NCBI RefSeq assembly: GCF_003182275.1
Contig: NZ_QGTR01000002.1
Location: forward strand, 62,001 to 126,000
Length of the DNA stretch: 64,000 bases
DNA from: Hoeflea marina
Lineage (GTDB): Bacteria > Pseudomonadota > Alphaproteobacteria > Rhizobiales > Rhizobiaceae
Direction: 5' to 3'
The notes beneath the pieces were generated by a model, which saw only the letters and a list, made by a program, of their open reading frames with translations, did not search any database and was not told the origin of the DNA. A program made the position numbers and the translations under genes. Of this stretch, positions 21,869 through 32,202 are shown in pieces. Position 1 is the stretch's first letter, and each line of letters begins with the position of its first letter.

Positions 21869-21993
21869 ATTCAATCGGAGTGCCTGAATTTTAGGCGTTG
21901 CCGGATATTGCTCTGCATGGGGCATTGTGTGCTTGCCAAGCCGGTTTGCGCCGGGCATCATGCTGCAATGCAGTATGACATGGCCCCTCAAGC

Positions 21994-23781
21994 ATGCCGG
22001 ACGATCCTGTGACACCCGGCGCCTCGATCCCCTCGCGCCTCGTGAGCGGTCTCGAGCAGTTGCTGGCCTTCATCTATCCCGACGAGAATCCCGCCACCCT
22101 GGCGAGGTTCGCCGCCGCCAGCTTCTTCGGCGATATCAAGCCGCGAAAGCGCGGCCGCATGCCCGGCACCGGCTTCTGGACCGAGCGCGACACCTACGTC
22201 ATCACCTATGGCAACACCATCGCCGACGGCGTGCATCGCCCGCTCGACCTGCTGCGAGATTTCGCCGAACGGCACCTCGCCGGCGTCTTCACCGGGATCC
22301 ACATCCTGCCGTATTTTCCCTTCACCTCCGATGATGGCTTCGCCATCACGGACTACAGGGCGGTCAACGCCCAGCTCGGCACCTGGGAGGATGTCGGCCG
22401 CATCGCCGGCCGGTTCCGGCTGATGTCGGACCTGGTGCTCAACCACTGCTCCAGCCAGTCGCCGATGTTCTCGGACTACCTGCAGGGCCATGCGCCCTGG
22501 GACCGGTTTTTCCGGGAAGCTTCGCCGGATGCCGATCTGAGCGAAGTGGTGCGCCCGCGCACCCACCCGCTGCTGCGCCAGGTGGAGACTGCGGGCGGCC
22601 CCCGTCATGTCTGGTGCACCTTCAGCCACGACCAAGTGGATTTTGACTTCTCGAACCCGCGCGTGCTGATGGAATTCCTCGACATCCTGCGCCTGCACAT
22701 CGAGAAGGGTGCCCGCACCATCCGGCTCGATGCGGTCGCCTTTGTCTGGAAGGAAGTCGGCACCCCCTGCATCCACCTGCCGCAGACCCATGCCGTCGTC
22801 CGGCTGATGCGGTTGCTCGCCGACTACCATCCGGAGCTGATCATCCTGATCACCGAAACCAATGTGCCCAATGTCGAGAATCTGAGCTATTTCGGCAACC
22901 GCAACGAGGCGCACGCGATCTACAATTTCTCGCTGCCGCCGCTGCTGCTGCATGCGCTGCTCACCGGCTCGTCGCGCTATCTCAACGCCTGGCAGATGGG
23001 CATGCCGCCGGCGCAACTGGGATGCGCCTATTTCAATTTCTCCGCCTCCCATGACGGCATCGGCATCCGTCCCGCGGAGGGTCTGATCCCCGACGAGGAG
23101 ATTGCCGCCATGATCGAGGCGGTACAGGGCTTCGGCGGGTTGGTCTCGATGCGCAGCCTGCCCGGTGGCGCAAAGCCCTACGAGCTCAACGTCGCCCTCT
23201 ACGACGCGGTTGCCGGGACGGTGCATGGCCCCGACGGTTTCCAGTTCGAGCGCTTCATCCTCAGTCAGGCGATCGTGATGGCGCTCGAGGGCATTCCCGC
23301 CTTCTATATCCACTCGCTGCTTGCCAGCCGGAACGACCGCGAGGGAGTCGAGCGGCTGGGCTACAATCGCGCCATCAACCGTCGGGCGCTGGATCGGGCC
23401 GCACTGGAGGCGGAGCTGACCGACCCCGACAGCGAGGAGGCGCGGGTCTTCACGCGGATCAAGGCGCTGGTCGCCGTCCGCTCGCGCCAGCCGGCCTTCC
23501 ACCCGAATGCGACGCAGTTCACGCTGCAGCTCGGCCCCGAATTCTTCGGCTTCTGGCGCCAGAGCATCGACCGTTCGCAGAGCATCTTCGCCGTCTTCAA
23601 TCTCACCGCCGGGCAGCGCAGCATCCCGGCAATGTCCCTCAACCTGATTGCCGGCGAGCCGTGGACCGACCTGCTCAGCGGCGAGAGTGTGCAGCCGGTC
23701 AGCGGCGAACTCGTCTTTGCTCCCTACCAGGCGCGCTGGATCGCCAACCGGCAGGGTGCCGGTACCCGCGAGAAGCCATGA
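21994..23781 (+). CDS. GH13_18-type sugar phosphorylase, probable glucosylglycerate phosphorylase
   Basis: 595 residues, related to sucrose phosphorylase and to YcjM-type glucosylglycerate phosphorylases. GH13 signatures: TGIHILPYFPF, DLVLNHCS, nucleophile in ARTIRLDAVAF, acid/base in LITETNVPN, stabilising Asp in NFSASHDGIGI. The enzyme should phosphorolyse an alpha-glucoside to glucose 1-phosphate. Its stop overlaps the start of a MpgP/GpgP-type phosphatase that is followed by a GpgS-type synthase, so glucosylglycerate is the likely donor; sucrose is the alternative. The start has only a weak ribosome binding site, so the exact N-terminus is less certain. Confidence 0.8.
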   Translation: MPDDPVTPGASIPSRLVSGLEQLLAFIYPDENPATLARFAAASFFGDIKPRKRGRMPGTGFWTERDTYVITYGNTIADGVHRPLDLLRDFAERHLAGVFTGIHILPYFPFTSDDGFAITDYRAVNAQLGTWEDVGRIAGRFRLMSDLVLNHCSSQSPMFSDYLQGHAPWDRFFREASPDADLSEVVRPRTHPLLRQVETAGGPRHVWCTFSHDQVDFDFSNPRVLMEFLDILRLHIEKGARTIRLDAVAFVWKEVGTPCIHLPQTHAVVRLMRLLADYHPELIILITETNVPNVENLSYFGNRNEAHAIYNFSLPPLLLHALLTGSSRYLNAWQMGMPPAQLGCAYFNFSASHDGIGIRPAEGLIPDEEIAAMIEAVQGFGGLVSMRSLPGGAKPYELNVALYDAVAGTVHGPDGFQFERFILSQAIVMALEGIPAFYIHSLLASRNDREGVERLGYNRAINRRALDRAALEAELTDPDSEEARVFTRIKALVAVRSRQPAFHPNATQFTLQLGPEFFGFWRQSIDRSQSIFAVFNLTAGQRSIPAMSLNLIAGEPWTDLLSGESVQPVSGELVFAPYQARWIANRQGAGTREKP

Positions 23782-24575
23782 GCCCGTGCGATCGTCTTCT
23801 GGTCTTCACCGACCTCGACGGCACGCTGATCGACCACCGGACCTATGGTTTCGACGCCGCCCGACCCGCGCTCGGACGCCTGCACCGCGAGGGCCATGCC
23901 CTGGTGATGGCTTCGAGCAAGACCGCCGCCGAGGTCGTCCCGCTGCGCGCCGCCGCCGGCTTTGCCCACTGCGCCGCCATCGTCGAGAATGGAGCCGGCA
24001 TCCTGCCGCCGGCCGGGGATGCCGCCGTAAGCGGGACGGAGGATGCGCACGACCGGCTGCGCGCAGCGCTCGACGAACTGCCTCCCGCGCTGCGCCGCCG
24101 GTTCACCGGCTTTTCCGACTGGAGTGTCGATGAAGTCTCGGTGAACAGCGGGCTTGATCGCGCGGCGGCATCGCTCGCGCGCCGTCGGCAGTTTTCCGAA
24201 CCTGGCCTGTGGACCGGCGGCAGGGAGGATTACCAGATCTTCGCGCTGCTGCTCGCCGAGAAGGGCATCTTCGCCCAGCAGGGCGGACGGTTCCTGACAT
24301 TGTCCTTCGGAGCCACCAAGGGCGACCGCATGGCGGAGATCACCCGGCAATGGCGCCGCACCGGCGAACCGATCACCACGGTGGCCCTCGGCGATGCGCC
24401 CAACGACATCACCATGCTGCAGCAGGCCGATATCGGGGTGATTATTGCAAATCCCGATCAGCCGGGCATCGACCGCCTCGAAGGCGAGGACAGCGGCCGC
24501 GTCCGCCGTTCGCTTCACCCTGGCCCCCTCGGCTGGAACGCGGAGATGCTGCGCATCCTTGACGAGTTGCGATGA
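23778..24575 (+). CDS. gpgP: Mannosyl/glucosyl-3-phosphoglycerate phosphatase (HAD family)
   Basis: 265 residues from the ATG at 23778, overlapping the upstream stop (ATGA). Cof-type HAD phosphatase of the MpgP/YedP group: motif I FTDLDGTLID (nucleophile and acid Asp), motif II VMASSKTAAEV, motif III Lys in GATKGDRM, motif IV LGDAPNDITMLQ. Such enzymes remove the phosphate from mannosyl- or glucosyl-3-phosphoglycerate to give mannosyl- or glucosylglycerate. A GpgS-type synthase 13 bp downstream supports the glucosyl activity. The symbol is by context. Confidence 0.83.
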   Translation: MSPCDRLLVFTDLDGTLIDHRTYGFDAARPALGRLHREGHALVMASSKTAAEVVPLRAAAGFAHCAAIVENGAGILPPAGDAAVSGTEDAHDRLRAALDELPPALRRRFTGFSDWSVDEVSVNSGLDRAAASLARRRQFSEPGLWTGGREDYQIFALLLAEKGIFAQQGGRFLTLSFGATKGDRMAEITRQWRRTGEPITTVALGDAPNDITMLQQADIGVIIANPDQPGIDRLEGEDSGRVRRSLHPGPLGWNAEMLRILDELR

Positions 24576-24588
24576 GAGGACTGCCGCC

Positions 24589-25800
24589 ATGGCCGATTAC
24601 CATCAGACCGGAAATGTCGCCACGCTCCACAATCTGGGCTCGGTCTCCGCCTCCGTTCTCGAGCGCCAGCTCGAAAGCTTTGCCGAGCGTCGCAAGATCA
24701 CGCTGATCCTGCCTTCGCTGTATTCCGAACTTGAGGCCCCCGCCCTCGACGCCATCGTCGAGGCGCTGGCCGGCGCGCGCTACATCAACCACATCGTCAT
24801 CGGGCTGGATCGCGCGGACGAGGCGCAGTTCCGGCACGCGCGGCGGTTCTTCGCCCGGCTGCCGCAGCAGCATTCGATCCTGTGGAACGACGGGCCGCGG
24901 CTCGGCACCATCCACCGGCGTCTGGCCGATGCCGGCCTTGCAGCCGGCGAGCCTGGAAAGGGGCGCAACGTCTGGTACTGCATCGGCTACACGCTCGCCT
25001 GCCAGGACAGCGACGTGGTTGCGCTGCACGATTGCGACATCACCACCTATTCAAGAGACATGCTGACGCGGCTGGTCTATCCCGTGGCCAATCCGGCCTT
25101 TTCCTACCAGTTCGCCAAGGGCTATTACCCGCGCATCGCCGACGGCAGGCTCAACGGCCGGGTCACGCGGCTGCTGGTGACGCCGGTTCTCAAGGCGTTG
25201 CAGAAGACCTGCGGCCAGAGCGACTATCTCGATTACCTGCAGGCCTTCCGCTATCCGTTGGCCGGCGAGTTCGCCATGCGCACCTCGATCCTGCCGAACA
25301 TGCGGATCCCGTCAGACTGGGGCCTGGAAATCGGTGTGCTCTCGGAAGTGGCGCGCAACCTGTCGCGCCATGCGGTCTGCCAGGTCGATATCGCAGACAG
25401 CTACGACCACAAGCACCAGCCGCTGTCGGAGGCAGACGCCAGCGCCGGCCTCTCGCGGATGTCGACAGACATCTGCAAGGCGCTGTTTCGCAAGCTGGCC
25501 ACCGAGGGCGCGGTCTTCAGCCACGAGACGTTCCGCACCATCAAGGCGACCTATTACCGGATCGCCCTCGATATGATCGAGATGTATTACAACGACGCGA
25601 TGATGAACGGGCTCAGGGTCGACCGCCACACCGAGGAGCAGGCCGTCGAACTTTTCGCGGCGAACCTGGTCGAGGCCGGCCACACATTTATCGAGAACCC
25701 GATGGAAACGCCGTTCATTCCGAACTGGAGTCGCGTCCAGTCCGCCGACCCGGACGTCCTGAGGGAGATTCGGGAGGCGGTGCTGGCCGACAACGCGTGA
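24589..25800 (+). CDS. gpgS: Glucosyl-3-phosphoglycerate synthase (GT81)
   Basis: 403 residues from the ATG at 24589 (GAGAGGACTGCCGCC upstream). GT-A glycosyltransferase that joins glucose from NDP-glucose to 3-phosphoglycerate, the first step of glucosylglycerate synthesis. Visible motifs: ITLILPSLYSE, KGRNVWYCIGYTL, and the metal-binding HDCDITTYSRDML (about residues 147-159), with FAKGYYPRIADGRLNGRVTR and WGLEIGVLSEVA as in archaeal and proteobacterial GpgS. Glucosylglycerate is a compatible solute made under salt stress and nitrogen limitation. Last gene of the operon. Confidence 0.88.
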   Translation: MADYHQTGNVATLHNLGSVSASVLERQLESFAERRKITLILPSLYSELEAPALDAIVEALAGARYINHIVIGLDRADEAQFRHARRFFARLPQQHSILWNDGPRLGTIHRRLADAGLAAGEPGKGRNVWYCIGYTLACQDSDVVALHDCDITTYSRDMLTRLVYPVANPAFSYQFAKGYYPRIADGRLNGRVTRLLVTPVLKALQKTCGQSDYLDYLQAFRYPLAGEFAMRTSILPNMRIPSDWGLEIGVLSEVARNLSRHAVCQVDIADSYDHKHQPLSEADASAGLSRMSTDICKALFRKLATEGAVFSHETFRTIKATYYRIALDMIEMYYNDAMMNGLRVDRHTEEQAVELFAANLVEAGHTFIENPMETPFIPNWSRVQSADPDVLREIREAVLADNA

Positions 25801-25911: not shown

Positions 25912-26211
25912 CTACATCTTGCAGCGGGCGGCGACGCTGTCGGTGAAGAGGGCTTCGTCCTTCTGCCATTCGGTGCAGGCGGCCTTGAACTTGGTCATTT
26001 CCTCGTCCGTCGCGCTGCCCATGCGTGTGGCGAAATCGTCATCGTCGCGCATCTGCTTCGTGTCCGGATTGACCATCATGTCGTAGACGCTCGGGTCCAT
26101 GTTGTCCGCGTTGCTCCAATACGTATTGTCCGCATTGGTCTGCGCAAAGGCGACTGTGGAAGTCATGGCGAAGGCTGCTGCTGCAGCGATTGTGGTCAGG
26201 GTTTTCATCAT
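25912..26211 (-). CDS. Small exported protein, paralogue 1 (unrecognised family)
   Basis: 99 residues. A signal peptide of about 23 residues (MMKTLTTIAAAAAFAMTS..., cleavage near AFA/Q) leads a 76-residue acidic mature protein with NMDPSVYDMMVNPDTKQM, an Asp run (RDDDDFATRM) and two cysteines (KAACTEW, AARCKM) that could form a disulfide. AGGAGTGA precedes the start. It is a clear paralogue of the protein at 26533-26835. It has its own EcfG-type promoter and terminator. I recognise no domain; a periplasmic stress role is inferred only from the promoter. Confidence 0.82.
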   Translation of the reverse strand: MMKTLTTIAAAAAFAMTSTVAFAQTNADNTYWSNADNMDPSVYDMMVNPDTKQMRDDDDFATRMGSATDEEMTKFKAACTEWQKDEALFTDSVAARCKM

Positions 26212-26532: not shown

Positions 26533-26835
26533 CTACATCTTGCAGCGAGCTGCGACCTTGTCGGTGAACAGGACTTCGTTCTGCTGCCATTCGCTGCAGG
26601 CCGCGCCGAACTTGGTCTTTTCCTCGTCGGTGGCCATGCTCATGCGCTTGGCGAAATCGTCGTCTTCGCGCATGGCCTTGGTTTCCGGATTGATCATCAT
26701 GTCATAGACGCTCGGGTCCATGTTGTCGGCCGAGCTCCAGTAGGTGTCGCCATCCATCGCGGTGGATGCAGCGAAGGCTGCCGTCGAGGTCAGGGCGATG
26801 GCTGCTGCTGCGACGAATGTGGTGAACTTGTTCAT
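26533..26835 (-). CDS. Small exported protein, paralogue 2 (unrecognised family)
   Basis: 100 residues. Signal peptide MNKFTTFVAAAAIALTS..., cleavage near AFA/AS. The mature part shares most residues with the protein at 25912-26211, including YWSSADNMDPSVYDMM, NPETKAM, REDDDFAKRM, the two cysteines and the terminal VAARCKM. Start by ATG at 26835 after GGGAGTGACAC. It carries its own EcfG promoter and intrinsic terminator, so the two are separate transcripts rather than an operon. The conserved YW-N(A/M)D and Cys residues suggest a compact disulfide-bonded periplasmic protein. Function unknown. Confidence 0.82.
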   Translation of the reverse strand: MNKFTTFVAAAAIALTSTAAFAASTAMDGDTYWSSADNMDPSVYDMMINPETKAMREDDDFAKRMSMATDEEKTKFGAACSEWQQNEVLFTDKVAARCKM

Positions 26836-27249: not shown

Positions 27250-27266
27250 TGCACAATTGTTGTGCG
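27250..27266. promoter_or_regulatory. NtrC-like enhancer site
   Basis: TGCAC-N7-GTGCG, matching the NtrC consensus TGCAC-N7-GTGCA in 9 of 10 defined positions. Its centre is about 130 bp upstream of the predicted sigma-54 start site, a usual distance for NtrC enhancers. A weaker TGCA...TGTGCA half-palindrome lies at 27275-27288. Confidence 0.6.
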
Positions 27267-27363
27267 CCGGCGGATGCAAATCTGTGCAGCCTGCGGGCGC
27301 CGCGGATCCATCGAGAATTGTTTAAACTGTTGAAAAAAATCGAAATTGTCGTTCTGTCAAAAC

Positions 27364-27379
27364 TGGCACGCTTTGTGCA
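27364..27379 (+). promoter_or_regulatory. Sigma-54 (RpoN) promoter
   Basis: TGGCAC-N5-GTGCA with GG (27365-27366) and GC (27377-27378) exactly 10 bp apart; only one base differs from TGGCAC-N5-TTGCA. Predicted transcription start about 27390. An AT-rich tract lies just upstream (27310-27360), suitable for IHF bending. Confidence 0.72.
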
Positions 27380-27390
27380 TTGTCAGGGTC

Positions 27391-27507
27391 AGATCCAGAG
27401 GGGATCAAACATAGCGTCCATCGAATGGCGCATCAGGCAAGGCCGCCAACCAGGCAACAGATCCGCGACAAGCGGATTGTCCCGGTTTGGCGGCTTTTCT
27501 TGTTTTT
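27391..27507 (+). ncRNA. Candidate nitrogen-regulated small RNA with intrinsic terminator
   Basis: About 117 nt from the predicted sigma-54 start to a T-rich tail. Stem 1: GATCC (27392-27396) / GGATC (27402-27406). Stem 2: GCG-U-CCAU (27414-27421) / AUGGCGC (27425-27431). Stem 3: GCCGCCAACC (27442-27451) / GGTTTGGCGGC (27484-27494), with an inner hairpin ATCCGC (27461-27466) / GCGGAT (27472-27477), followed by TTTTCTTGTTTTT. Three hairpins, no convincing reading frame with a ribosome binding site, and sigma-54/NtrC signals point to a regulatory RNA. The NtrC-activated MmgR (alpha-r8) RNA of Sinorhizobium is a precedent, but homology was not tested. It converges on the DMT permease gene. Confidence 0.6.
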
Positions 27508-27669: not shown

Positions 27670-28554
27670 TCACACGGGTGCGGCGATGGCGACCCGGTTG
27701 GCTGCGCGGATGTTGATCCAGTTGGCAAGGAAGATGACGCCGCCGCCCAGGAAGACGAACCAGTCGAGCTGCTCGTGGAACAGCACCATGCCGACGATGG
27801 CGATCACCGGCAGGCGGGCGAAATCGATCGGGATCACGAAGCTCGCCGGCGCCAGCGCCAGCGCGGTCGTCAGGCAGAAATGCGCCGCCAGCCCGGATAT
27901 GCCGATGGCCACCAGCCAGGGCAGCGTGGTGGCTGTCGGCCAGGTCACCACGCCGTCATAGCCGGTCATGATGGCGCCGAAGCAGAGCTGCATCAGGGTG
28001 AGCCAGAACAGGATCGAGACGGCGCTTTCGTCGCGGGTCAACGACTTGGTCAGCAGCAGCGTGGCGGCAAAGAAGATCGCCGCGGTCGCCGCCGCGACGA
28101 CGCCCGGGTTGAGCGAGTTGAAGTCGGGGCGGACCACGATCAGGATGCCGAGGAAGCCCAGCACGGTGGCCACCAGGCGCGGCAGCGTCAGCGGTTCCTT
28201 CAGGATGAAGACCGACAGCAGGATCACCCAGACCGGCGAGGTGAATTCGAGCGCGAAGACCTGCGCCAGCGGGATCAGCGCAAGCGCCCAGAACCAGAGG
28301 TTCTGCCCGGTGAAGTGACACAGGTTGCGCGCGAGATGGGACCGGAATCGCGCGACCCGGACTTCGCCGAGCCGGCCGCTGCCGCCGGCGACCGCCAGCA
28401 CGATCACGAATCCGACCAGCGAACGCCAGGTCATGATTTCGAATGTGTCGTGCAGTCCCGACACCATCCGGCCGGAGATCGCCATCATCGAGAAGAACCC
28501 GATCGAGCCCATCATCCAGAGAGTCGCGGCGAGGGGGCGATAGGTCTGCGGCAT
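27670..28554 (-). CDS. DMT-superfamily permease (EamA family)
   Basis: 294 residues with ten hydrophobic segments arranged as two EamA repeats of five. WRSLVGFVIVLAVAGG, NLCHFTGQNLWFWALALIPLA and FTSPVWVILLSVFILKEPL followed by RLVATVLGFLGILIVVRP are typical of the RhaT/EamA drug-metabolite exporters. The second repeat ends FFAATLLLTKSL...FHEQLDWFVFLGGGVIF. Start preceded by GGAGACTGCCCGC. Substrate unknown; exporters of amino acids or S-adenosylmethionine are common in the family. Confidence 0.87.
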   Translation of the reverse strand: MPQTYRPLAATLWMMGSIGFFSMMAISGRMVSGLHDTFEIMTWRSLVGFVIVLAVAGGSGRLGEVRVARFRSHLARNLCHFTGQNLWFWALALIPLAQVFALEFTSPVWVILLSVFILKEPLTLPRLVATVLGFLGILIVVRPDFNSLNPGVVAAATAAIFFAATLLLTKSLTRDESAVSILFWLTLMQLCFGAIMTGYDGVVTWPTATTLPWLVAIGISGLAAHFCLTTALALAPASFVIPIDFARLPVIAIVGMVLFHEQLDWFVFLGGGVIFLANWINIRAANRVAIAAPV

Positions 28555-31393: not shown

Positions 31394-31497
31394 GCCCGGG
31401 GCCGGCGGTCGCGCCTAGTGGCCCTGGCAATGTTGAAATGATTGCGGTTTTCATTTTCGGTCTTGCTTTCCACGGCAAAGCCAATAGTCTGACCGAA

Positions 31498-31588
31498 CAA
31501 CAGGGGTGCTCCGTATTGCCGGGGCTGAGATGTCGAACGCCAGTTCGCGGACCCTATAGCTGATCTGGGTAATGCCAGCGGAGCGAGG
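31498..31588 (+). promoter_or_regulatory. TPP riboswitch (THI element)
   Basis: Contains the conserved THI-box blocks in order: CAGGGGTGC (31501-31509), GGGGCTGAGATG (31521-31532), ACCCTATAGCTGATCTGGG (31551-31569) and TAATGCCAGCGGAGCGAGG (31570-31588). The aptamer ends on the GAGG Shine-Dalgarno of ykoF, five bases before its ATG, so it probably works by sequestering the ribosome binding site when TPP is bound. The ykoFEDC genes are THI-box regulated in Bacillus subtilis too. Confidence 0.93.
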
Positions 31589-31593
31589 TGACG

Positions 31594-32202
31594 ATGTTTT
31601 CCGGCGCACAGGTGTCTCTGTATCCGATGTCCGACGATTTTGTCGGCGTGATCTTCGGCGCCATCGGCGCGCTTGATGCCTGGCGTGATCGCCTCCGCAT
31701 CGAAACCGACGATATCTCCACCCTGCTGGTCGGCCCGCCGGAAATCCTGTTTCCGGCCATGCGCGACCTTCTCCTCAGCGCCGCCGGCAGCGGCGTGCAC
31801 TGCGTGCTCTCGGCCGCCGTGTCGCGCGGCTGTCCCGGAGAGCCCGATGATCCCGTCTGCACGCCGATCAGCGATGGTCCGGATGGCCGGCCGCTCGGCG
31901 AGCGCATCTACGCTGCGCGTGCGGCGGTGGCGGGCTCCGGGCTGACCGGGCAACAGGTGGCGGCGCAGTTTTCTCTCTACCCGCTAGGCGCCGGCCACCA
32001 CATGGACGAGATCTACGGCTGCATCGAGTTCCTGAAATCGTCGGGCGTCTTCGACCGCTCGAAGAACTTCTGCACCAAGCTCAGCGGCGATGCCGGACCG
32101 GTCTTCGCCACGCTGTCGGAAGCCTTCACCCGCTTCGGCGCCGGTGCGGGCCATGTGGCGCTGGACGTGACGGTTTCGGCCAACAGTCCCAGCGCCGCCT
32201 GA
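31594..32202 (+). CDS. ykoF: YkoF family thiamin/HMP-binding protein
   Basis: 202 residues from the ATG at 31594 (GAGG at 31585-31588; a GTG at 31588 lies inside the riboswitch end). YkoF proteins are cytosolic, two ferredoxin-like repeats, and bind thiamin or hydroxymethylpyrimidine. The repeat is visible as SGAQVSLYPMSDDFVGVIFG and AAQFSLYPLGAGHHMDEIYG. It is first in a riboswitch-controlled operon with an ECF-type importer. Followed by a (CT)12 microsatellite. Confidence 0.88.
   Translation: MFSGAQVSLYPMSDDFVGVIFGAIGALDAWRDRLRIETDDISTLLVGPPEILFPAMRDLLLSAAGSGVHCVLSAAVSRGCPGEPDDPVCTPISDGPDGRPLGERIYAARAAVAGSGLTGQQVAAQFSLYPLGAGHHMDEIYGCIEFLKSSGVFDRSKNFCTKLSGDAGPVFATLSEAFTRFGAGAGHVALDVTVSANSPSAA

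Follow-up and report, generated by a model that had tools for sequence, protein, structure and literature searches.

A conserved sigma-54-type small RNA gene of Hoeflea marina with exact complementarity to AbcR: a candidate SmelC165-family sponge

We have identified in Hoeflea marina a conserved small RNA (sRNA) gene, located behind a sigma-54 promoter and an NtrC-type operator, whose first hairpin carries the sequence UCCAGAGGGGA (27394-27404, plus strand). The new observation is that this 11-mer is the exact complement of UCCCCUCUGGA of AbcR (ar15, RF02345), across most of the aSD2 motif of that RNA; the transcript family as such is already known in Sinorhizobium and Rhizobium. Judging from the sequence, we consider it probable that the RNA is a member of the SmelC165 family which is activated by NtrC and sigma-54 under nitrogen shortage, and which titrates or destabilises AbcR. 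We hold slightly less firmly to the broader proposal that NtrC acts on rhizobial nutrient uptake through a dedicated sigma-54-driven AbcR sponge, which would explain how AbcR behaves under nitrogen stress; the sponge element would have been added to, or lost from, an older NtrC-controlled RNA. No report of NtrC regulation or of AbcR pairing of a SmelC165-type RNA was found in the accessible portions of the open-access literature.

The small RNA gene and its conservation

The coordinates refer to the window, i.e. the whole stretch of 64,000 nt that was analysed. The gene is placed on the plus strand, in a gap between a minus-strand ORF (26533-26835), whose product of 100 aa looks secreted by eye and has no Pfam match, and the minus-strand gene of an EamA transporter (27670-28554). 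A similar ORF product of approximately 100 aa, likewise secreted-looking by eye and devoid of a Pfam match, is encoded at 25912-26211, and the flanks of the two ORFs are also similar, as if locally duplicated. Elsewhere in the window (31492-31603) we noted a TPP riboswitch (RF00059), which scored 54.4 bits, just over the cut-off of 54.3.

An earlier note on this DNA had claimed for the gap an NtrC-like palindrome, a -24/-12 promoter and a structured segment of 117 nt ending in a strong intrinsic terminator, and all three were found where it had placed them. The sigma-54 promoter TGGCACGCTTTGTGCA (27364-27379, plus strand) is an exact consensus with GG-N10-GC spacing; it is conserved among relatives, at a near-constant distance from the RNA 5' end, and its position gives a predicted +1 at 27390/27391. 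The sRNA gene of approximately 117 nt (27390/27391-27507, plus strand) is defined by its fold z-score and a covariance model, with the 5' end inferred from the promoter and the 3' end from the terminator. The operator TGCACAATTGTTGTGCG (27250-27266) lies at about -140 and obtains a score of 16.2 from a motif that was learned on other genomes. A second, weaker site may be present at about -118 (GGATGCAAATCTGTGCA, 27272-27288); its score of 8.2 is lower than the 95th percentile of control windows (10.7), which makes it uncertain.

Each taken alone, the promoter and the palindrome are not beyond chance. The pattern TGGCACGN5TGCA occurs once in the window as an exact match and 14 times with up to two mismatches (31.6 expected), the shorter TGGCACGN5TGC occurs 16 times in the whole genome compared with 27 exact matches of the reversed control, and the operator palindrome with up to one mismatch has 10 matches in the window compared with 14.7 expected. 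The significance of this set of elements derives from conservation and not from motif counts.

The segment 27391-27507 folds with an energy of -52.4 kcal/mol (z = -6.4), which was equalled by none of 200 shuffled sequences. Hairpin 1 (GAUCC-AGAGG-GGAUC, 27392-27406) stands at the predicted 5' end and is followed by hairpin 2 (GCGUCCAUCGAAUGGCGC, 27414-27431) and by an intrinsic terminator (27442-27507), all on the plus strand. The arms of the terminator, GCCGCCAACC (27442-27451) and GGTTTGGCGGC (27484-27494), enclose a further hairpin, ATCCGCGACAAGCGGAT (27461-27477), and the second arm leads into the U tract TTTTCTTGTTTTT (27495-27507). This terminator was missed by a generic scan, presumably because the loop limit of the scan was 8.

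Three helices were retained in an alignment of 14 sequences (the H. marina locus and 13 relatives), in which 97.2% of the cells were paired. Nine of the 23 pairs were changed on both sides, and none of 500 shuffled alignments reached the covariation score. Most of these changes, seven, affect the 14 helix pairs of the terminator; hairpin 2 has a single such pair (C-G to U-A), as has hairpin 1 (A-U to G-C, in three of the 14 sequences). A larger alignment of 78 rows was derived from 87 matches (in which 81 of 82 source loci were recovered, L131 being absent) by removing six opposite-strand matches and three loci (L070, L086 and L095). Over these 78 sequences hairpin 1 was near-invariant, and its covariation was weak (its score was reached by 103 of 500 shuffles and its number of double-change pairs by 485) because it hardly varies. 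The earlier note had predicted a discrete sRNA of the sigma-54/NtrC type, and had named beforehand, as one outcome that would refute it, a lack of conservation of promoter and stems in relatives. Promoter and stems proved to be conserved and, together with the recurring operator motif, they support the prediction.

When 101 genomes were searched at the DNA level, 15 matches were obtained in addition to the locus itself. Two of them (L014 and L016) looked spurious and were left out; the remainder extend for the most part over the promoter and the first hairpin. The covariance model, built from the 14 aligned sequences, matched 169 of 394 Rhizobiaceae genomes, representing 49 of 109 genera, and 32 of the 33 Sinorhizobium genomes. 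A sample of the whole order yielded matches in 19 of 297 genomes, eight of them outside Rhizobiaceae; two of these eight (L193 and L195) were read, and the match of L195, from another family of the order (G512), carries the CCAGAGGGG hairpin and lies near a contig end. In 15 of the 33 Sinorhizobium genomes (G424:C2, G781:C2, G785:C5, G793:C4 and others) a second, weaker match of the model, possibly a paralogue, was also recorded.

The pattern consisting of the promoter and the 5' hairpin was present in 91 of the 394 family genomes, and its reversed control in none. It was found in at least 118 stretches of contigs, 80 of which were listed with names, and the matches listed come from Hoeflea, Rhizobium, Agrobacterium, Ensifer/Sinorhizobium, Shinella, Ciceribacter and other taxa; since this pattern contains the 11-mer, the invariance of the latter among these stretches is ascertained. 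One genome (G285) has the pattern in two copies. A plasmid collection gave no match with the H. marina promoter and RNA as the query, in a search that was insensitive, as a Sinorhizobium query did match.

Complementarity to AbcR

Searching four genomes for the complement TCCCCTCTGG revealed 25 sites, among them tandem sites approximately 205 bp apart, which were identified through Rfam as AbcR (ar15, RF02345); the remaining ones were the sRNA itself and other places. The nine ar15 matches in loci found through the 10-mer make a biased count; the unbiased one comes from a search of 70 chosen genomes with RF02345, which was positive for 60 of them, 51 exceeding the cut-off, with a single match in H. 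marina. This AbcR of H. marina has the 11-nt complement, and the 10- and 11-nt complement was present in all of the 30 best-match ar15 loci and in 25 of 30 further loci that were read. Tandem arrangements were seen in another Hoeflea genome (G003, L252), which has three AbcR copies, and in G156 (L288), which has four AbcR motif sites.

The available text of a study of AbcR1/2 (PMC8844928) locates aSD2 (UUCCCCUC) between stem-loops 1 and 2, and links it, by mutation analysis, to the repression of amino-acid uptake mRNAs, with the repression of SMa0495, prbA and others being assigned to it; the motif is also implicated in the case of the amino-acid permease gene aapQ. Of the 11 nt of the complement, seven fall on aSD2, leaving out one of its eight bases, and four extend beyond it. 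No complementary stretch between the sRNA and AbcR is longer, and only three of 1000 shuffled AbcR sequences reach 11 nt anywhere. In the predicted folds, the first seven bases of the site in H. marina AbcR and the five loop bases of hairpin 1 in the sRNA are unpaired.

Cofolding gave graded results. For both Hoeflea pairs the gain was -11.0 kcal/mol, with no shuffled AbcR out of 60 as good in either case; against shuffled sRNAs, 3 of 60 (H. marina) and 6 of 60 (the second Hoeflea) performed equally well. The gain was -12.0 in G034 (2 of 60 shuffled AbcR as good) and modest in relation to the shuffles in G401 (-12.2 and -12.6, with 7 and 10 of 60 as good) and G792 (-8.7 and -8.9, with 14 and 12 of 60). 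In two genomes whose RNA has another first hairpin the gains were -5.5 and -0.9, i.e. worse than most shuffles.

This other form of the RNA came to light among the covariance-model hits that were read, 13 of 30 of which did not contain CCAGAGGGG. One of the 13 was the second, weaker match in G046 and one came from another family, and the other 11 differed in the first hairpin, in many cases a tight one of the GGCC type. In these 11 the promoter, the operator and hairpin 2 persist: the variant form (L307, L314, L315, L319, L320, L322, L330 and others) has a sigma-54 promoter, an NtrC box mostly at -150, a hairpin 2 of the type GCGUCCAAUGRCGGGCGCC and the terminator. The relatives concerned, which we take to be Mesorhizobium-like, do not have the AbcR site, and the sponge element was thus gained or lost on one branch. 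Besides its proposed part as an AbcR sponge, the sRNA probably has a second, older role.

The retention of hairpin 2 and the terminator in relatives without the AbcR complement also suits the most serious alternative, namely that the sRNA is induced by NtrC and sigma-54 and has mRNAs as its real targets, which it would contact by hairpin 2, by the single-stranded linker or by the terminator hairpin, and that the AbcR match is incidental. The loop does resemble a Shine-Dalgarno sequence, and since the 11-mer holds a core of this kind, part of the AbcR match follows from SD/anti-SD likeness; the modest cofold gains in G401 and G792 agree with this alternative as well. A further point against the sponge reading is that the AbcR motif is conserved as well in genomes without a hit of the covariance model (e.g. 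G009, G016, G019 and G033), so the two do not co-vary. We nevertheless regard an incidental match as rather unlikely. In the lineage possessing the 11-mer, this element is near-invariant and few parts of the RNA are as well conserved, which was in part ascertained by the search pattern; in the Sinorhizobium loci found by the covariance model it is complete in 21 of 28, with CAGAGGGGA present in all 28. Furthermore, its exact complement overlaps a functional motif, aSD2.

Pairing with AbcR, the reading that we prefer, can be set beside data in the accessible part of PMC8844928, according to which nitrogen stress prevents the accumulation of AbcR1 and promotes that of AbcR2, an exception to the match with promoter activity. 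The authors describe this as "hinting at posttranscriptional AbcR1/2 regulation" and propose that sponges of AbcR1/2 be looked for. A sponge driven by NtrC would fit the behaviour of AbcR1; the rise of AbcR2 is not predicted by a sponge that destroys both siblings, and would need another cause.

Control of the promoter

The motif used for scoring was learned by expectation-maximisation on the upstream regions of 106 non-redundant loci, drawn from the matches listed and excluding H. marina. It is a 17-bp palindrome, TGCnCAAAATTTGnGCA. On the loci used for learning, i.e. in sample, the median of the best upstream scores was 13.7, compared with 2.8 for control windows; the best site fell between -160 and -91 in 108 of 116 cases. 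In the relatives with another first hairpin, which are outside the training set, the operator is usually situated at -150 to -152 and its score can reach 20.3; some relatives have weak scores (e.g. 3.4 in L327). The operator of H. marina, itself of the form TGC-N11-GCG, was also scored out of sample, and two sites in the window reach a score of at least 16, compared with 0.04 on average when the window was shuffled 50 times by mononucleotide.

The second of these strong NtrC-like boxes (TGCCTGAATTTTAGGCG, 21881-21897, score 16.4), with a weak GG-N10-GC site following it, is placed approximately 100 bp before an operon (21994-25797) encoding sucrose-phosphorylase-like, mannosyl-3-phosphoglycerate-phosphatase-like and GpgS-like proteins. 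Glucosylglycerate synthesis may share the NtrC regulon. The functional link between this pathway and the sRNA, which the earlier note thought conceivable, receives no support from synteny, although the box is present before the operon: no glucosylglycerate genes were seen within approximately 2.2 kb of the sRNA in two other Hoeflea loci (ORFs judged by eye).

The same motif was found, out of sample, at nitrogen-related genes of H. marina, whose names (glnII, amtB, glnA), like that of the ABC operon below, were read from translations, two P-II genes having been found separately. It precedes glnII (15.6, with a sigma-54 site), glnK-amtB (16.3; a strict scan detected no sigma-54 site before glnK), glnB-glnA (11.4 and 9.8, with a weaker sigma-54 site) and an ABC operon of the spermidine/putrescine type (15.7, with a sigma-54 site). 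Among the 16 exact sigma-54-like sites of the genome, three have an upstream box scoring at least 15, namely those of the sRNA, glnII and the ABC operon. The recurrence of the operator before glnII, glnK-amtB and the polyamine-type ABC operon lends good support to NtrC/sigma-54 control.

It is improbable, in our judgement, that another sigma-54 activator, e.g. NtrX or a less studied enhancer-binding protein, controls the promoter in place of NtrC. The genome has six strong Sigma54_activat matches, and the learned motif differs in detail from the enteric NtrC consensus. The plain pattern TGC-N11-GCA was found upstream of 43 of 116 loci (16 of 103 controls), and TGC-N10-GCA is as enriched (52 of 116, compared with 17 of 103), which indicates that the spacing is not uniform. 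Two other patterns, TGT-N10-ACA (3 of 116 compared with 3 of 103) and GCAA-N3-6-TTGC (9 of 116 compared with 10 of 103), showed no excess upstream. Against another activator stand the recurrence of the motif at the glutamine synthetase and P-II loci of H. marina listed above and its fit to the rhizobial NtrC signature, which the available text of PMC10746234 gives as TGC-N11-GCA. NtrC is therefore the best reading of this promoter that the sequence allows, NtrX or another activator being less likely.

Kinship with SmelC165 and proposed role

The 5' hairpin contains AGAGGGGA, which is Shine-Dalgarno-like, and it might on that account be the ribosome-binding site of a short leader ORF. This is very improbable: a start codon (ATG, GTG or TTG) follows GGGGA at a distance of 4-12 nt in just 17 of 117 loci and is absent in H. 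marina, and 34 of the 117 loci have no start with an ORF in the 46 positions scanned. These counts led us to reject a leader ORF.

The locus had been described in the earlier note as unannotated, which is correct with respect to Rfam, where no family reached the gathering score for the H. marina locus or the relatives scanned, and does not hold for its S. meliloti counterpart, very probably the known SmelC165. The kinship with MmgR (alpha-r8) that the note had considered was not borne out: the RNAs are alike in being rhizobial sRNAs with three stem-loops and with a response to NtrC, which is predicted for the RNA described here (MmgR is NtrC-induced according to the text seen of PMC7143759), but that it is a diverged MmgR has a negligible probability, since the alpha-r8 core 10-mer UUUCCUCCCU (as given in the part of PMC12559287 available) is missing, there is no Rfam match, and MmgR is a 77-nt RNA from another S. 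meliloti locus with a different type of promoter, having a dyad between -35 and -10.

Membership of other families was likewise rejected. The CCUCCUCCC motifs of NfeR1 (alpha-r14) are absent, the sRNA has no match at the gathering score to AbcR/alpha-r15 (RF02345), the only match of this family in the genome being on contig C6, and the H. marina locus (L023) has no match to alpha-r35 (RF02346). Two Sinorhizobium loci gave partial, sub-threshold ar35 matches (27.0 and 23.1 bits; cut-off 45). In many members (L046, L235 and others) the terminator encloses GUGAUCCCGGAUGUACGGACAC with a GGAUGUA loop, which is reported, in the sources as far as accessible, for SmelB053 and for cspA 3'UTRs; this module alone is common to them and to SmelB053/ar35, and the terminator hairpin of H. 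marina does not have GGAUGUA.

SmelC165 of S. meliloti 1021 is listed, in the accessible text of PMC7143759, as a single-copy RNA of 116 nt (910182-910297, plus strand) with a predicted RpoN promoter and an RNA-seq transcript; its table row, as extracted, has no Hfq or nodule entry, and symbols may have been lost from it. The family model, described in the available part of PMC3927594, is Rhizobiaceae-wide with complete microsynteny, and comprises a stem with internal loops followed by poly-U. These partial texts state no known function and no NtrC or AbcR link for SmelC165. The family studied here resembles it in length, strand, predicted RpoN promoter, single copy, Rhizobiaceae range and a broken stem with poly-U.

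In S. meliloti Ak57 (CP090106.1) the homologue, to which the RNA region of G792 is 91% similar, sits between nurR (LuxR family) and mrp, on the same strand as SmelC165. Its distance from the SRP RNA is 651,963 bp; the published coordinates of strain 1021, in the portion accessible, place SmelC035 (the SRP RNA) and SmelC165 650,255 bp apart. The identity of the S. meliloti homologue with SmelC165 is strongly indicated by this interpolated position, as distinct from a letter-by-letter comparison of sequences. The synteny with a LuxR-type regulator and mrp was also observed in several Sinorhizobium/Rhizobium loci, and not in the window or the Hoeflea loci that were read. A study of SmelC165 from 2011 reports, in the text available, no relatives in A. 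tumefaciens or A. radiobacter, whereas we found the RNA in A. tumefaciens B6, Hoeflea, Shinella, Ciceribacter and others.

The mechanism that we propose is as follows. The sRNA would be transcribed by sigma-54 RNA polymerase from a stand-alone gene, with NtrC, bound approximately 140 bp upstream at the palindrome, acting as a putative activator when nitrogen is short. The loop and arms of hairpin 1 would then pair with the AbcR stretch overlapping single-stranded aSD2, and this would titrate or destabilise AbcR. This would lift the AbcR block on translation of mRNAs for amino-acid and other ABC transporters, and NtrC may in this way extend its control of nitrogen scavenging to the post-transcriptional level. 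The contribution of hairpin 2 and the terminator may be to stabilise the RNA and to present a U tract for binding of Hfq.

There is a precedent in Caulobacter, where, according to the accessible text of PMC12559287, CrfA sponges SisA-D. As far as these descriptions can be compared, CrfA is a nutrient-stress sRNA, as the RNA described here is predicted to be, and each has a stem-loop rich in G and A that is complementary to the anti-SD core of a conserved sRNA. CrfA differs in responding to carbon starvation and in having an alpha-r8 target, whereas the RNA described here would respond to nitrogen through NtrC/sigma-54 and has alpha-r15 (AbcR) as its putative target. GlnZ of E. coli, described in the part of PMC10954441 available, is an NtrC-activated sRNA acting on nitrogen/carbon flux, to which the RNA proposed here would be similar; it differs in being tied to the glnA 3'UTR, in targeting mRNAs and in belonging to another bacterium.

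AbcR1/2 interact with the mRNAs of approximately 6% of the protein-coding genes of S. meliloti and repress amino-acid uptake, as stated in the available portion of PMC8844928. SmelC165 is a named, single-copy candidate for the factor that switches AbcR off when nitrogen is scarce. If this is true, a global nitrogen regulator would act through an RNA that acts on another RNA, and nitrogen sensing would be coupled to the release of the transport genes repressed by AbcR.
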